Shown here in pieces: positions 34,581 to 54,709 of a DNA stretch of 54,981 nt. Source of the DNA: Bacteroidota bacterium. Its GTDB lineage: Bacteria > Bacteroidota > Bacteroidia > JABDFU01. The number at the start of each line of letters is the position of its first letter. Positions within the stretch are counted from its first letter, which is position 1. Location of the stretch: assembly GCA_016183775.1 (NCBI GenBank), contig JACPDY010000075.1, positions 1-54,981 on the forward strand, given 5' to 3'. The position numbers and the translations under genes are program-made. Below the pieces are notes generated by a model. It saw nothing but the letters and a program-made list of their open reading frames with translations, did no database searches and was not told where the DNA came from.

Positions 34581-35342
34581 ATGCAAGTTACTTTTTTAGG
34601 TACAGGTACTTCACAAGGCGTGCCGGTCGTCGCTTGTCCTTGTATTGTTTGCCGGTCAAAAGATCCTAAGGATAATCGTTTACGCAGTTCTATCCTGGTC
34701 GAAGATGGCGGTAAGGTGTACGTTATTGATACCGGCCCTGATTTTCGTTACCAGATGTTAAGAGCAGGTGTAAAATCATTGGATGCGGTAATTTTTACTC
34801 ATGAGCATAAGGATCACATAGCAGGCTTCGATGATATTCGCGCGTTTAATTATGTGCTGAAAAAGAAGATCGATGTATACGCTACAGAGAGGGTGCAGCA
34901 GGCTATGAAGCGTGAATTTGCCTATATTTTTGACGGAACAGATTATCCCGGTATTCCCCAGATCAATTTATTCACAATCGATAATAAACCATTTGTAATT
35001 AACATTACACGTTTTATTCCGATCGAGGTTAAACATTTTAAGTTGCCCGTGCTCGGATTCCGGATCGGTGATTTTACATATATAACCGACGCGAATTTTA
35101 TTTCAGAGGAAGTGAAAGAAAAGATAAAAGGTTCGAAAGTACTGGTGCTGAATGCACTCCGCCGGGAACATCATGTTTCTCACTATACATTGGAACAAGC
35201 CATTGAATTGGCAAAGGAGCTAAAACCGGAAAAGGCTTACTTTACACACATCAGCCATCAATTGGGTCTCCATTCGGAAGTTGAAAAAGAATTACCTCCG
35301 GGTATTTTTCTCGCCTACGATGGTTTGCGTTTGGAATTATGA
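34581..35342 (+). CDS. MBL-fold metallo-hydrolase (PhnP-like)
   Basis: The 253-residue cytoplasmic metallo-beta-lactamase-fold phosphodiesterase has the dinuclear metal motif FTHEHKDHIAGFDD, later ligands in VKHFKLPVLGF, ITDANF and FTHISHQLG, and a PhnP-type extra zinc site in ACPCIVCRSKDPKDNRLRSS. PhnP cleaves cyclic phosphodiesters, but no phosphonate genes are here, so the substrate is uncertain. The 3' end overlaps the convergent lipoprotein gene by 28 nt. Confidence 0.92.
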   Translation: MQVTFLGTGTSQGVPVVACPCIVCRSKDPKDNRLRSSILVEDGGKVYVIDTGPDFRYQMLRAGVKSLDAVIFTHEHKDHIAGFDDIRAFNYVLKKKIDVYATERVQQAMKREFAYIFDGTDYPGIPQINLFTIDNKPFVINITRFIPIEVKHFKLPVLGFRIGDFTYITDANFISEEVKEKIKGSKVLVLNALRREHHVSHYTLEQAIELAKELKPEKAYFTHISHQLGLHSEVEKELPPGIFLAYDGLRLEL

Positions 35343-35890
35343 TCTTCTGAACTTATTGAATAGACATCCTGGTATTCACTATTGTCAGTATCACAGGGGG
35401 TATCCAGGAAATTATTCTCATTGAAGTCCGATACAAATTCGCCCTTTTCATCAAGCTGAAAATAAAAACGAATATTCTCAATTCCATTAATGCTCAGCGG
35501 AGTGTCGGTACGATAAACATCAACAGGGCGGTCTGTAATAATATAGCTGTATTGGTACCTGGTCAATTTATATAACAGTAGCGATTCAATGTTAAAATAA
35601 AGTGTATCATACCCATTTTTCTTCAGCCAAACATTATAATTATCCTTCCATTTTTTCAATTTTATCTTAAGCATCGTTTCATACGATTCATCCAATACCA
35701 GGGGTGAAGTCCGTTTCAGGTGGTTGAGTCTGCGTTTACAGCTATCCGGTTCATAGTCGCCACTATTAATGAATTCGCTGACATCCACCGGCATAGGCAT
35801 CATATTGTTCATCTCGTATTTCTGCTGTTTGCAGCTATTGATAAACATATAACCAAGCAGGATACAAGCTGTAATGGAAAGGCGCTTCAT
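35315..35890 (-). CDS. Hypothetical lipoprotein
   Basis: The 191-residue product has a lipoprotein signal (MKRLSITACILLGYMFINSC, Cys20). The mature part contains no family I recognise. It is polar, with a tyrosine-rich middle (YSYIITDRPVDVYRT) and a beta-strand-like FYFQLDEKGEFVSDF segment. It overlaps the 3' end of the MBL hydrolase gene on the other strand. There is no obvious promoter match; TATTTTTA lies in the usual region. Confidence 0.75.
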   Translation of the reverse strand: MKRLSITACILLGYMFINSCKQQKYEMNNMMPMPVDVSEFINSGDYEPDSCKRRLNHLKRTSPLVLDESYETMLKIKLKKWKDNYNVWLKKNGYDTLYFNIESLLLYKLTRYQYSYIITDRPVDVYRTDTPLSINGIENIRFYFQLDEKGEFVSDFNENNFLDTPCDTDNSEYQDVYSISSEDHNSKRKPS

Positions 35891-35951: not shown

Positions 35952-35983
35952 AAGGGAGGCCCCGAATATTCAGAGCCTCCCTT
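35952..35983 (-). terminator. Intrinsic terminator of the exported metal/cysteine cluster
   Basis: AAGGGAGGC (35952-35960) pairs with GCCTCCCTT (35975-35983), and on minus the stem is followed by TTTTATTG. It lies 22 nt beyond the stop of the cysteine-rich mini-protein. Confidence 0.85.
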
Positions 35984-36004: not shown

Positions 36005-36193
36005 TTATTTACTGCATTCTCCGCAACCTGCAGATCCGCAATTGCTGCAATCATTGCAGTCGGAACATTCACAGGTTTGGCAATCACATGTACTGCAGCA
36101 GCAGCTGTCAGTTGATCTTGCATTCAATGCGTAAATAGTGGCGGTAGCCATCATTAAGACAGCAGTACCGAATATTATCATTTTCTTTTTCAT
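36005..36193 (-). CDS. Exported 12-cysteine mini-protein (metallothionein-like)
   Basis: The 62-residue product has a clear signal peptide (MKKKMIIFGTAVLMMATATI, cleavage expected near ALNA). The mature peptide of about 36 residues has 12 cysteines in CCC, C-x-C and C-x-x-C spacing (DSCCCSTCDCQTCECSDC, then NDCSNCGSAGCGEC) and no aromatic residue. Such density implies metal chelation or disulfide/iron-sulfur ligation outside the cytoplasm. I do not recognise a named family. It is the last gene after HYC_CC_PP and HMA-type genes and is followed by a strong terminator. Confidence 0.8.
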   Translation of the reverse strand: MKKKMIIFGTAVLMMATATIYALNARSTDSCCCSTCDCQTCECSDCNDCSNCGSAGCGECSK

Positions 36194-36250
36194 TTTTTTT
36201 AGTTTTAAAACCTGCCTTTATATTTGTTTTGGTGGAGCAGGTAAGGTTAA

Positions 36251-36595
36251 TTATTCTTTTCTTTTATACTGGCAACACTCATGCAGGTTAGCATAAGCGC
36301 TATCATCACCCTTCATTTTCTCTGTATCATAACCTGCATTGGCTATCTGCTTATGGATATCAGCAAGGGTTACCGCAAGTGTATCGTATTTCACCCGGAT
36401 CATTTTGGTGTCTTTGTTCCAATTGGCTTCAATTACACCATCCGTTTTTAACGAACCTTCTATGGTCTCCTTGCACATGCCGCAGTTTCCCCAAACCTTA
36501 AATTCAGTGGTTTTGGCACTCGACGGCGCGCAGGATGAAAGATAAGCAAGCGATAGACTCAATGCTATATATATAGCAACTTTTAAATTTTTCAT
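36251..36595 (-). CDS. Heavy-metal-associated (HMA) domain lipoprotein
   Basis: The 114-residue product has a lipoprotein signal (AYLSSC, Cys22) and one HMA ferredoxin-like domain (about 30-95). The domain carries the metal-binding loop GNCGMCKETIE (C38, C41), followed by IRVKYDTLAVTLADIHKQI and NAGYDTEK. A C-terminal ECCQYK adds two further cysteines. It would bind a soft metal such as copper in the periplasm. The open frame continues upstream of this ATG (to 36772), but MKNLKVAIYIALSLSLAYLS is the real signal sequence. Confidence 0.88.
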   Translation of the reverse strand: MKNLKVAIYIALSLSLAYLSSCAPSSAKTTEFKVWGNCGMCKETIEGSLKTDGVIEANWNKDTKMIRVKYDTLAVTLADIHKQIANAGYDTEKMKGDDSAYANLHECCQYKRKE

Positions 36596-36653
36596 TTCTT
36601 TGAATTTACAGGTTAAAATTAATTTGAAGGATGATGGAAAAACAAGTGGTACA

Positions 36654-37034
36654 TCAAACCAGTAGAACACGAATGAATAAGTGAAGTTCTTTTTTGAGAT
36701 ATTTTGGAGGTGAATGCGTGGCTTGAGTAATAACTTCAGCAACGTCAGCATGTTCTGAATTGTCCAAAACATTGCTTAGCAGAAAGTTTGCAGAAACGAT
36801 GGGTTTAACTTTTACGTCAGCCGAATATTGATGAGAATCTTTTACCTTAACATAAGCTTGCTTATCCTTGCAGCAACCGCTTTTGTTTTCGCCACCACAG
36901 CCACAATTCGGGTCGCTTTTGTAATTAATGGTTATTGAAGATATTTTTCCCGCGCAGTAATGGATATTTAATGCAATACCCGTTGATAACATCAGGTATA
37001 GAAACATTAAACATATAGTTATTGAGCGTTTCAT
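36654..37034 (-). CDS. HYC_CC_PP family protein
   Basis: The 126-residue exported protein carries the three family marks: HYC (residues 25-27, in NIHYCAGK), CC (54-55, in SGCCKDK) plus the NCGCGG cysteines before it, and PP (109-110, in THSPPKY). It has an N-terminal signal helix. The family is typical of Bacteroidota and its function is not established. It often occurs near metal-handling genes, as here with an HMA lipoprotein and a cysteine-rich peptide downstream. The TATCTTTG element ends only 6 nt from the ATG, so the mRNA may be leaderless. Confidence 0.88.
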   Translation of the reverse strand: MKRSITICLMFLYLMLSTGIALNIHYCAGKISSITINYKSDPNCGCGGENKSGCCKDKQAYVKVKDSHQYSADVKVKPIVSANFLLSNVLDNSEHADVAEVITQATHSPPKYLKKELHLFIRVLLV

Positions 37035-37039
37035 TCAGT

Positions 37040-37047
37040 CAAAGATA
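37040..37047 (-). promoter_or_regulatory. Promoter -7 element (TATCTTTG) of the HYC_CC_PP cluster
   Basis: Exact TAnnTTTG on minus, ending 5 nt before the ATG at 37034. The expected transcription start coincides with the start codon. Confidence 0.55.
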
Positions 37048-37097: not shown

Positions 37098-38327
37098 TTA
37101 ATTACCATTTACAACACTATTTAACACCTCATTAACACTTTTCGCAGTCGGGAAATACGATAATATTTTCTGTAACACACCATCAACAATTGCATCGGGA
37201 CAGGATGCGCCGCTGGTTAAAATAATCTCGATGGGTTCTTTTGCCGGCAAAAATTTTTCAGTCGACAAGTGTTCTTGTTTATGGTAGTTAAAATGTCGTA
37301 TCGTATTTTTTGATTCAATTTCACTTGCCGATGAAATAAAATAAGTGGGTAATTTTGCTTCACATAATTCAACCAGGTGTGATGTGTTGGAACTATTGTA
37401 TCCTCCCACAACAATTGCCAGGTCTGCTTTTTCACGCAATAAACCATAAGTGGAATCCTGGTTTTCATTTGTAGCGTAACACAATGTGTCGCGGGTATCG
37501 GCAAAATGGTCTTTAATATTGGGTTCACCATATTTTTTTACCATCACCTGCTTTATATATTCGGCAATTTCTTGTGTTTCACTGGCAAGCATGGTAGTTT
37601 GATTGATTACGCCAACGCGCTGCAGGTATTTTGCCGGGTCAAAGCCCTGTGAACAGCGATCTTTAAATAATAATTGAAATTCTTCGGGTCCGATTTCACC
37701 CAATATAAATGCGCCTAATTTTTTCGCTTCATGAATATCTTTCACTACAATGGCAGGGGCATTGATCTCACTTCTCGAAAAAGTGGCCCTGGTTTCCTCA
37801 TGATTATGTTTGCCATGAATAACTATGGAATAATTACCTTCTCCAAGCTTTTCAGCCCTGTTCCATACCTTTTCAACAAAGGGGCAGGTGGTATCGTATT
37901 TATGAACTTCTATACCAATCGCTTTAATTTTTTCCTGTATTTGTAAAGTAGTTCCAAAAGCCGGAATAATAACAATATCATTTGAATTAACCTCGCTCCA
38001 GCCAATAAGTTGTTTTCCAGAAATATCCATAATAAAACGAACGCCCCGATCAGTAAGATCTTTATTAACTTCCGGATTATGTATCATCTGACTTAAAAGA
38101 AAAATTCGCTTTCCGGGATTTTCCTCTACAGCCTTAAAAGATATTTCAATGGCATTCTCAACACCATAGCAAAAGCCAAAATGCCGGGCAATTAAAAAAC
38201 GTACAGGGCCGAAATCCAATAGAGTAGGAGTGAAATCCTTTTTACGCGGGTCGGTTATGCGCCTTACATTCTTTATCTTCGATATGATCGGACTTCTGTA
38301 AAACTCCGGTATCTGGAATTGTTTCAT
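37098..38327 (-). CDS. ispH: 4-hydroxy-3-methylbut-2-enyl diphosphate reductase
   Basis: Last enzyme of the MEP isoprenoid pathway, giving IPP and DMAPP. The 409-residue product has the three iron-sulfur ligands Cys53 (HFGFCYGVENAI), Cys148 (DTTCPFVEKVW) and Cys376 (SGASCPDAIVDG), and the conserved IHGKHNHEE and VGGYNSSNTSHLVELC segments. It is longer than E. coli IspH because of an N-terminal extension and internal insertions, as in the long form found in many Bacteroidota. It follows the zinc metallopeptidase gene by 10 nt. Confidence 0.96.
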   Translation of the reverse strand: MKQFQIPEFYRSPIISKIKNVRRITDPRKKDFTPTLLDFGPVRFLIARHFGFCYGVENAIEISFKAVEENPGKRIFLLSQMIHNPEVNKDLTDRGVRFIMDISGKQLIGWSEVNSNDIVIIPAFGTTLQIQEKIKAIGIEVHKYDTTCPFVEKVWNRAEKLGEGNYSIVIHGKHNHEETRATFSRSEINAPAIVVKDIHEAKKLGAFILGEIGPEEFQLLFKDRCSQGFDPAKYLQRVGVINQTTMLASETQEIAEYIKQVMVKKYGEPNIKDHFADTRDTLCYATNENQDSTYGLLREKADLAIVVGGYNSSNTSHLVELCEAKLPTYFISSASEIESKNTIRHFNYHKQEHLSTEKFLPAKEPIEIILTSGASCPDAIVDGVLQKILSYFPTAKSVNEVLNSVVNGN

Positions 38328-50095: not shown

Positions 50096-51357
50096 ATGAA
50101 TTTACTCAGATCCCTTATTCTCATCATTGGTTTTACACCTTCATTCTTCGCACAAAAGGAAGATTCGCTCATAATCAGAAAAATATTTTCTGAAATCCTT
50201 ACCAAAGGACAATGCTACTCAAACCTTGATTACCTGAGTAATAGTATCGGCGGACGCCTGAGCGGCTCTATTCAGGCGCAGAAGGCTGTTGAGTGGGCTG
50301 CTAAGGCTATGAAAAGCGCTGGCAGCGATACCGTATTTATGCAGGAATGTATGGTACCGCATTGGGTAAGGGGAGAGAAGGAGGTTGGGAAAATAATTAG
50401 GTGATGTGATGAATATTTGCGCGCTTGGAGGTTCAGTGGGTACACCTGCAGAAGGTATTACAGCTCCGGTCATTGAAGTGAAAAGTATAGAAGATCTGTA
50501 TAAGATCGGGACAGAGTATATAAAAGGGAAAATAGTTTTCTTTAACAGGCCCTTTGATAAAACGGAGGAAGATCCCTTCAATGCTTATGGCAAAGCGGTT
50601 GATCAGCGCTGGAAAGGCCCGAGTATAGCAGGGAAGTTCGGAGCTGTGGCCACAATATGCCGTTCTATGACTACCGATATAAATGATTTTCCTCACACCG
50701 GTTCAATGACTTATTTTGACAGTATCCCGCAAAAAATTCCGGCATGTGCTATCAGTACATGGGGTGCAGAGTATTTAAGTGATCTTTTAAGGGATGATCC
50801 GCAGGTTAAATTTTTCCTGAAAATGAATTGTGAGAAATTGCCGGATGAAAAATCCTTTAATGTGGTAGGAGAACTTAGAGGCTTCGAACATCCGGAAGAA
50901 ATTATTGTGGTTGGCGGCCACCTGGATTCTTGGGATACAGGCGATGGTGCGCACGATGATGGGGCGGGGGTGGTGCAGTGGCAAAAAATACGCGGAGCTG
51001 GCAAAGAAAAACAATGAGAAGCACATCTTGGCTATTGAGAGCGATAGGGGAGGTTTTGCTCCACGAGGATTTACATTCACCGGTCCTGCTGAAAAACGTG
51101 AACAGTTAAAAAAATGGAAGCCCCTGCTTGCACCTTATGGAGTGTATGATTTCGACCAGGAAGGGGGAGGAGTTGACATATCTCCGCTGGAAAAAGCGGG
51201 AGTGCCTGTAATGGAACTTTACCCCGACCCGCAACGGTATTTCGATTATCACCACGCTTCTACTGATAAATTCGACGGGGTAAACAAACGTGAACTGGAA
51301 ATGGGTGCGGCAAGTCTCGCGGCCCTTATCTACCTTGTAAGTGAACATGGCTTTTGA
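50096..51357 (+). pseudogene. M28-family aminopeptidase, disrupted
   Basis: Three frames together encode an exported M28 zinc peptidase. The first (50096-50404) runs from a signal peptide to VRGEKEVGKIIR and a stop. The second (from about 50394) resumes with LGDVMNICALGGSVGTP and carries the metal-binding VVGGHLDSWDTGDGAHDDGAG. After GVVQ the frame is lost, and the third resumes at KKYAELAKKNNEKHILAIES to YHHASTDKFDGV and the stop at 51357. The segment that should lie between GVVQ and GGKKYAEL, about 30 residues including the catalytic/metal NEE-NG motif, is missing. A frameshift alone could be a sequence error, but the loss of the core suggests a true pseudogene. Confidence 0.85.
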
Positions 51358-53859: not shown

Positions 53860-54709
53860 ATGTCAACTAACTTACTGAAAGGGAAAAAGGGAATTATATC
53901 AGGAGCATTGGATTCTAACTCAATAGCCTGGAAAGTGGCTGAAAAAGCCCATCAACAGGGCGCTCAGATCGTTTTAACCAACGCACCGATAGCGATGCGT
54001 ATGGGAGAGATCAAAAAGTTATCTGAAGCAGTTAATGCGGAGATCATTCCTGCAGATGCAACTTCGATTGAGGACCTGACGAATCTGTTCACAAAGTCAC
54101 AGGAAATAATGGGTGGCACAATTGATTTTGTACTGCATTCAATCGGCATGTCGCCCAACGTGCGTAAAAACATTCCTTATACCGATCTGAACTATGATTT
54201 TTATATGAAGAGTATTGATATATCCGCCATGTCGCTCCACAAAATGCTGAGCGTGGCCCATAAACAGGATGCCATCAGTGAGTGGGGAAGTGTTGTTGCC
54301 TTGTCTTATATTGCCGCGCAGCGCGCATATCCATTTTATAATGATATGGCCGAAGCCAAAACAGTATTAGAATCTATTGCCCGTAGTTTTGGTTACCACT
54401 ATGGAAAAGCAAAAAAAGTAAGGATTAACACCATTTCACAATCTCCTACAATAACTACTGCAGGATCGGGGATTACTGGATTTGATCAAAACAACTGCCG
54501 GCAACGGCATCAAAGGGTTTGAAGATTTCTTTAACTATGCCGAACTGCTTTCTCCGTTAGGAAATGCCAGCGCCGAATCCTGTGCCGATTATTGTATCAC
54601 ATTGTTTTCAGATCTTACCCGCATGGTAACTATGCAAAATCTTTACCACGATGGCGGTTACTCATATACGGGAGTAAGCAATGAGATCATGGAGAATATG
54701 GGTAAATAA
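53860..54709 (+). pseudogene. fabI: Enoyl-ACP reductase FabI, frameshifted by a 37-nt diverged duplication
   Basis: NADH-dependent last step of fatty-acid elongation. Frame 1 (53860-54522) encodes the SDR fold with Y150, Y160 and K167 (SYIAAQRAYPFYNDMAEAK), ending in TITTAGSGITGFD and then junk. A second frame continues as IKTTAGNGIKGFEDFFNYAE and SPLGNASAESCADY to GGYSYTGVSNEIMENMG (stop 54709). The segment TTAG-x-GI-x-GF appears twice in diverged form, with GCA at 54460 and GCC at 54497, 37 nt apart, causing the frame change. The rest of the gene looks functional. FabI is usually essential, so a sequence or assembly error is a serious alternative to real loss. Confidence 0.85.

Follow-up and report, generated by a model that had tools for sequence, protein, structure and literature searches.

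A three-gene operon on the minus strand of a Bacteroidota genome has, in our estimate, an even chance of serving a soft, Cu(I)-like periplasmic metal, with an HYC_CC_PP protein as the sensing leader, an HMA-domain lipoprotein as the chaperone and an exported mini-protein as the thiol buffer. The operon lies in a stretch of 54,981 nucleotides (the window) from a genome of 4.5 Mb that is 97.7% complete (G000); its order is represented by six sampled genomes of one genus (G000-G005). The first-pass annotation had described the three genes and missed what the first of them may be: HYC_CC_PP is more likely to act in regulation, as a leader, than to bind metal in a structural role. By analogy with known leaders, HYC_CC_PP and a second family, the WxPPK leaders, might both be nascent-chain metal sensors of Bacteroidota that control modular cargo translationally through a locus-specific helix, a tentative reading that we place a little short of even. 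The helix would join the leader stop region to the next start, and the cargo would be an RND pump, a TonB receptor, an HMA chaperone or a mini-protein.

The three-gene locus

The three consecutive minus-strand ORFs are all present as first described, and a terminator follows them (Table 1). The HYC_CC_PP copy of the window is a clear member of its family, whose name describes motifs only (NCBIfam NF047658, 52.2 bits against a cut-off of 28). Inspection of its sequence shows a signal peptide, the motifs HYC, CGC and CC, and 16 residues after the PP. The second gene, whose true start is internal to a longer ORF, encodes an HMA-domain protein (PF00403, 34.5 bits against a gathering cut-off of 24.8) with the CxxC metal motif, a lipobox LSSC, the expected GNCGMC and a C-terminal CCQY. 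Both family assignments of the first-pass annotation therefore hold.

Table 1. Features of the three-gene locus and its flanks, in window coordinates.
Feature	Position	Strand	Description
ispH	37098-38327		flanking gene
Weak Bacteroidota -7-like element, TATCTTTG	37040-37047	-	ends just before the HYC_CC_PP start codon
HYC_CC_PP family protein	36654-37034	-	126 aa; NF047658
Possible 5' arm, TACTGGTT	36657-36664	-	last HYC_CC_PP codons; pairs with 36607-36614
Possible 3' arm, AACCTGTA	36607-36614	-	12-19 nt before the HMA start codon
HMA-domain lipoprotein	36251-36595	-	114 aa; PF00403
Small hairpin in the HMA/mini-protein gap, 5' arm, TACCTGCT	36236-36243	-	pairs with 36210-36217
Small hairpin in the HMA/mini-protein gap, 3' arm, AGGCAGGT	36210-36217	-	pairs with 36236-36243
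Exported Cys-rich mini-protein	36005-36193	-	62 aa; ORF; identical in G004
Intrinsic terminator	35952-35983	-	14-bp stem, 4-nt loop, T run
Lipoprotein gene	35315-35890		flanking gene

The strong terminator claimed at the end of the unit is borne out by its fold (z -4.6 in the window and -5.7 in G004, a second species of the genus, on MAG contig JAEUTS010000045) and by its 14 pairs, which G004 retains with two double changes and three single ones. The single promoter element claimed at the front fares less well: a -7-like element is there, reading TATCTTTA in G004, but it is weak and has no -33 element at the usual spacing. A sigma-70 promoter scan gave sites no more numerous than in shuffles.

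Elsewhere in the window, an M28-type peptidase recognised by eye at 50406-51357 (+) is divided between two frames that overlap (50406-51017 and 50905-51357), the result of a frameshift, a pseudogene or a MAG error. A FabI-like enoyl-ACP reductase, also recognised by eye, at 53860-54522 (+) terminates prematurely with a tail, ITGFDQNNCRQRHQRV, that is unrelated; this suggests a frameshift.

The exported mini-protein

Judged by eye, the signal peptide of the mini-protein has its cleavage site after ...TIYA or ...LNA, which gives a mature part of 37-40 residues (about 36 had been claimed) with the 12 Cys first reported, arranged as CxC and CxxC. No Pfam, NCBIfam or PDB relative was found, in agreement with the earlier remark that the peptide has no named family, and no metallothionein model of Pfam or NCBIfam matches it. 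Bacterial metallothioneins of the SmtA/BmtA type are tiny, very Cys-rich, cytoplasmic proteins with CxC and CxxC motifs and with family models of their own; the mini-protein shares the size, the Cys content and the motifs but differs from them in that it carries a signal peptide and matches no family. A search for papers on periplasmic or exported metallothioneins found none.

The gene is single-copy in G000, and exact conserved words from it, searched in 85,000 species genomes, matched the sister species G004 alone. There the same three genes stand in the same order, flanked by DNA that is ~89% identical, and all 62 of the 62 residues of the mini-protein are the same (dN=0; none of the 151 nonsynonymous sites differs, and 3 of the 35 synonymous ones do). 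Since neighbouring genes have a dS of 0.3-0.9 between the two species (dN about 0.03-0.06), the ORF is not a chance one. At the rates of the neighbours, zero nonsynonymous changes have a Poisson probability of 0.0002-0.007, and this comparison of two sequences indicates strong purifying selection on the mini-protein. The synonymous sites of 36005-36193 are also unusually conserved between the two species (P 0.0004-0.02 for the three changes), which may reflect codon or RNA constraint, or local or recent exchange.

Across the genus, the order HYC_CC_PP, HMA, mini-protein is seen only in G000 and G004. In G005 the HMA gene lies at a contig edge and is directly followed by another gene, with the peptide absent on that contig and HYC_CC_PP at the edge of a different one, and neither the mini-protein nor HYC_CC_PP was seen in G001-G003 (56-72% complete); the triad is thus documented in two of the six genomes. 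Other Cys-rich mini-proteins stand behind another leader in G001, G002 and G005. Outside the genus, no mini-protein was found behind HYC_CC_PP in about 70 loci, and HYC_CC_PP is directly followed by an HMA protein in 13 sampled loci. Of the neighbourhood proposed in the first-pass annotation, the HYC_CC_PP-HMA pair therefore recurs outside the genus, the three-gene unit was seen in this genus only, and the peptide itself was seen in only one of the close relatives. The suggestion of a metallothionein-like exported peptide in a metal-handling unit is upheld in another way: relatives of each part of the triad sit in copper or arsenic neighbourhoods, among CusA/CzcA pumps, HMBD proteins, multicopper oxidases and ars genes (unscanned genes named by eye). 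What finds no support is the idea of one conserved three-gene periplasmic system.

Mini-proteins behind WxPPK leaders

With the mini-protein alone as query, 395 Bacteroidia genomes yielded two remote relatives, and a three-row alignment yielded more; most of the weak hits of the alignment search were long ORFs that matched by their signal peptide, and these were set aside. An arrangement recurred among the relatives, in which an exported leader of ~110 aa is followed 33-170 nt downstream by an exported Cys-rich mini-protein. The leader carries the Cys motifs CC and then CNPFxxCxC and ends in WxPPKxx-stop. A profile built from six such leaders matched 70 of the same 395 genomes. At 21 of the 63 leader loci outside the profile set, the leader is directly followed by an ORF of 52-113 aa that is rich in Cys and bears a signal, where about 0.4 would be expected by chance (from about 40 spurious such ORFs in 666 kb of the same loci, both strands). 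A second search, covering 87 genomes from a different order, turned up six new short peptides; four stand directly behind a leader, and two are found in ars-type operons with the leader absent.

Judging from these sequences, Bacteroidia have a loose class of exported, Cys-rich mini-proteins of 50-113 aa, to which the window peptide belongs. The members vary widely in length and in the number and spacing of their Cys, and their common descent is only putative. The window peptide probably acts as a sponge for metal on the far side of the inner membrane. In other loci, read by inspection, the WxPPK leader precedes an RND pump, a TonB receptor, or an HMA-like protein and a TonB receptor. DUF6660 (PF20365) resembles the leaders found with mini-proteins in one weak match, the best score being 11 bits against a cut-off of 27; a search for papers on DUF6660 found none.

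Some peptides of these loci deserve mention in their own right. L086 1141-1440 and matching genes in L090, L091, L096, L100, L108 and L142 form a longer subtype behind leaders (about 97-105 aa, 13-15 Cys, CCKxCKDxKCKxxC...GKGCCK), whose spacing suggests helices, perhaps like those of copper storage proteins. In an ars-type operon of G302, L074 8436-8555 (-) encodes a 39-aa, 11-Cys peptide without a signal peptide (MNDNKDQECCKNCNCN...GSCC), a possible cytoplasmic metallothionein, which adjoins a leader and an exported mini-protein. Exported 63-66 aa, 7-Cys peptides occur in ars-type loci at L079 8798-8989, L194 1501-1701 and L197 1501-1701, next to a short protein that ends in repeated CC motifs; no leader was detected there.

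Two leader families at the head of metal operons

HYC_CC_PP is present in 242 of the 395 sampled Bacteroidia genomes (about 60%). A PP occurs in 68 of 71 members, followed by a tail of 15-16 aa in 53, and the CC-to-PP spacing is 52-55 in 51 of the 68; with a spacing of 53 and a tail of 16, the window copy is typical of a family whose length is constant. In the WxPPK leaders the PP is universal (69 of 69), 53 of them having a tail of 2-3 aa, and the last motif Cys mostly lies 39-42 residues before it. The stretch between is almost unconserved, as is the mid-region of HYC_CC_PP, where conservation is concentrated at the Cys motifs, the PP and the last residues. A comparison of the two profiles gave no credible match beyond the signal peptide, and a relationship between the families was set aside.

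Both families head RND-pump and TonB-receptor operons. The genes after HYC_CC_PP include 27 RND pumps, 15 HMA proteins (two of them in this genus) and six TonB receptors, besides Sco-like, MbnP-like and HMBD types, and most of its upstream neighbours are divergent or separated from it by over 60 nt. The earlier statement that the function of HYC_CC_PP is not established agrees with our literature search, which found neither an assigned function nor a paper naming the family.

RNA pairing between the leader stop and the next start

The sequence around and after the leader stop folds better than shuffles (mean z -2.57 for HYC_CC_PP and -1.87 for the WxPPK leaders, against -0.09 to -0.87 for controls). 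When the leader-stop stretch was paired with the stretch before the next start, in cognate and in swapped combinations (10000 permutations), cognate pairing stood out at z -13.8 for HYC_CC_PP (n=65) and -9.8 for the WxPPK leaders (n=62), each with 0 of 10000 permutations. After removal of relatives (leaders below 40% or 45% identity kept), the values were -8.6 and -7.7, respectively. Control adjacent gene pairs gave z -3.0, and 15% of them fell in the top 10%, against 45-51% for the leaders. The 5' arm comprises the last codons and the stop in the WxPPK leaders and lies just after the stop in HYC_CC_PP. In the latter family the fold of the gap depends on the next gene, with a mean z of -4.45 before RND pumps, -3.65 before TonB receptors, -2.2 before other genes and -1.3 before HMA genes.

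The HYC_CC_PP-HMA gap of the window folds no better than shuffles (z +0.95), with no significant RNA structure that would shield the next start; the leader role of the window protein is for this reason drawn from its family, and control in this operon may be transcriptional or exerted by weaker coupling. A weak pairing of TACTGGTT with AACCTGTA (duplex -5.9 kcal/mol, rank 0.65, fold not significant) has 7 bp and one mismatch in the window and 8 bp in G004, which differs by one double change; this paired change is suggestive of a helix, no more. The small hairpin in the HMA/mini-protein gap is present in G000 and G004, its fold z likewise not significant, and a regulatory hairpin in either gap of the window was rejected on these fold tests. 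An Rfam scan gave nothing above threshold.

Comparison with CutF and CruR

In Rhodobacter capsulatus, the first gene of the CutF-CutO copper operon encodes a small exported Cys protein whose PP motif is C-terminal. The study of CutF, which required a PP among the last 15 residues, had already classed Bacteroidota proteins as CutF-like (PMC9973294), so leaders as such have a precedent in this phylum. In Bordetella pertussis, CruR (DUF2946) is an exported Cys-motif protein with a PP near the C terminus and a conserved motif spacing of 45 aa; it heads TonB-receptor, Sco-like and MbnP-like operons, and copper lowers expression by Rho-dependent termination (PMC9426467). Arrest has not yet been demonstrated for CruR or CutF, and HAPP is one of the RAPP-like motifs (PMC10987492); several HYC_CC_PP proteins carry it, the G005 copy included, and the window copy has HSPP. 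Metallothioneins go unmentioned in the CruR paper and in the main text of the CutF paper (PMC9426467, PMC9973294).

Like CutF and CruR, which are nascent-chain copper sensors of Proteobacteria, HYC_CC_PP and the WxPPK leaders are exported Cys-motif proteins with a PP near the end and a conserved spacing. They stand at the head of metal operons of the TonB, RND, Sco or MbnP kind, in which the next gene is preceded by structured RNA or a long gap. By inspection, the window copy has the signal peptide and Cys metal motif of such leaders. The differences lie in the details. With 16 residues after its PP, the window protein falls outside the CutF filter, as most HYC_CC_PP proteins would with their 15-16. 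CutF has RNA structure between leader and next gene, whereas the window locus has no significant stem-loop. The motif-to-PP spacing is 39-42 in the WxPPK leaders and 52-55 in HYC_CC_PP, unlike the 45 of CruR, and neither the WxPPK leader nor the window copy of HYC_CC_PP has a profile match to DUF2946. We propose, by analogy, that HYC_CC_PP works like CutF and CruR, and do not claim that it belongs to that family.

Mechanism and alternatives

In the mechanism that we infer, down to the metal, the stalling, the direction of regulation and the buffering, HYC_CC_PP would be an exported, probably short-lived leader that samples metal during export. Its Cys pair would bind metal while the chain is emerging from the Sec channel, and the metal-bound chain would slow translation near the PP and the C-terminal segment and thereby alter downstream expression. 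The HMA lipoprotein, with its HMA fold and GNCGMC, would be a chaperone moving metal at a membrane face, and the mini-protein a periplasmic metallothionein-like buffer whose 12 thiols could hold several metal ions or act as a redox reserve. Cu(I) is the most likely metal, and arsenite is possible. As the PP lies 15-16 codons before the HYC_CC_PP stop, a ribosome halted there would not cover the stop-proximal arm, so stalling in this family would have to occur nearer the stop.

The weak HYC_CC_PP-HMA subset, the gap of the window with its non-significant fold and the finding of the triad in one genus only count against the leader model. The view of the first-pass annotation, somewhat unlikely to our mind, is that HYC_CC_PP is a stable periplasmic metal-binding or assembly protein acting with the other two products, and not a regulator. 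The non-significant fold of the window gap speaks for this view, the conserved HYC and CC metal-ligand motifs and the constant length would fit a small folded metal protein, and the fixed spacing could reflect a fold instead. Such a protein is harder to reconcile with a mid-region that is almost unconserved, with the strong leader-to-start pairing and folding before RND or TonB genes and, as weak evidence, with a single-sequence prediction that gives no fold (pLDDT 45). That this pairing stems only from translational coupling or AT-rich composition, with no metal sensing, is unlikely: control gene pairs are also slightly over-paired, but the excess is far larger for the leaders and robust to deduplication, and the conserved PP and Cys spacing and the metal gene context also speak against it.

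The periplasm is usually oxidising, and 12 Cys could give six disulfides, so the mini-protein might be a secreted disulfide-rich peptide, antimicrobial or structural, instead of a metal buffer. We regard this as highly unlikely, given the copper and arsenic gene neighbourhoods of its relatives, the metallothionein-like CxC and CxxC spacing, and a Cys number and spacing that vary widely among relatives, unlike those of disulfide-locked folds.

Perspective

Should HYC_CC_PP prove to be a sensing leader, nascent chains would exert translational control over much of the copper and metal transport of Bacteroidota, a mode of control outside the transcription-factor models now in use. The sensor reading, if true, would also provide the first function for HYC_CC_PP and mark out exported bacterial metallothioneins under leader control as a class.
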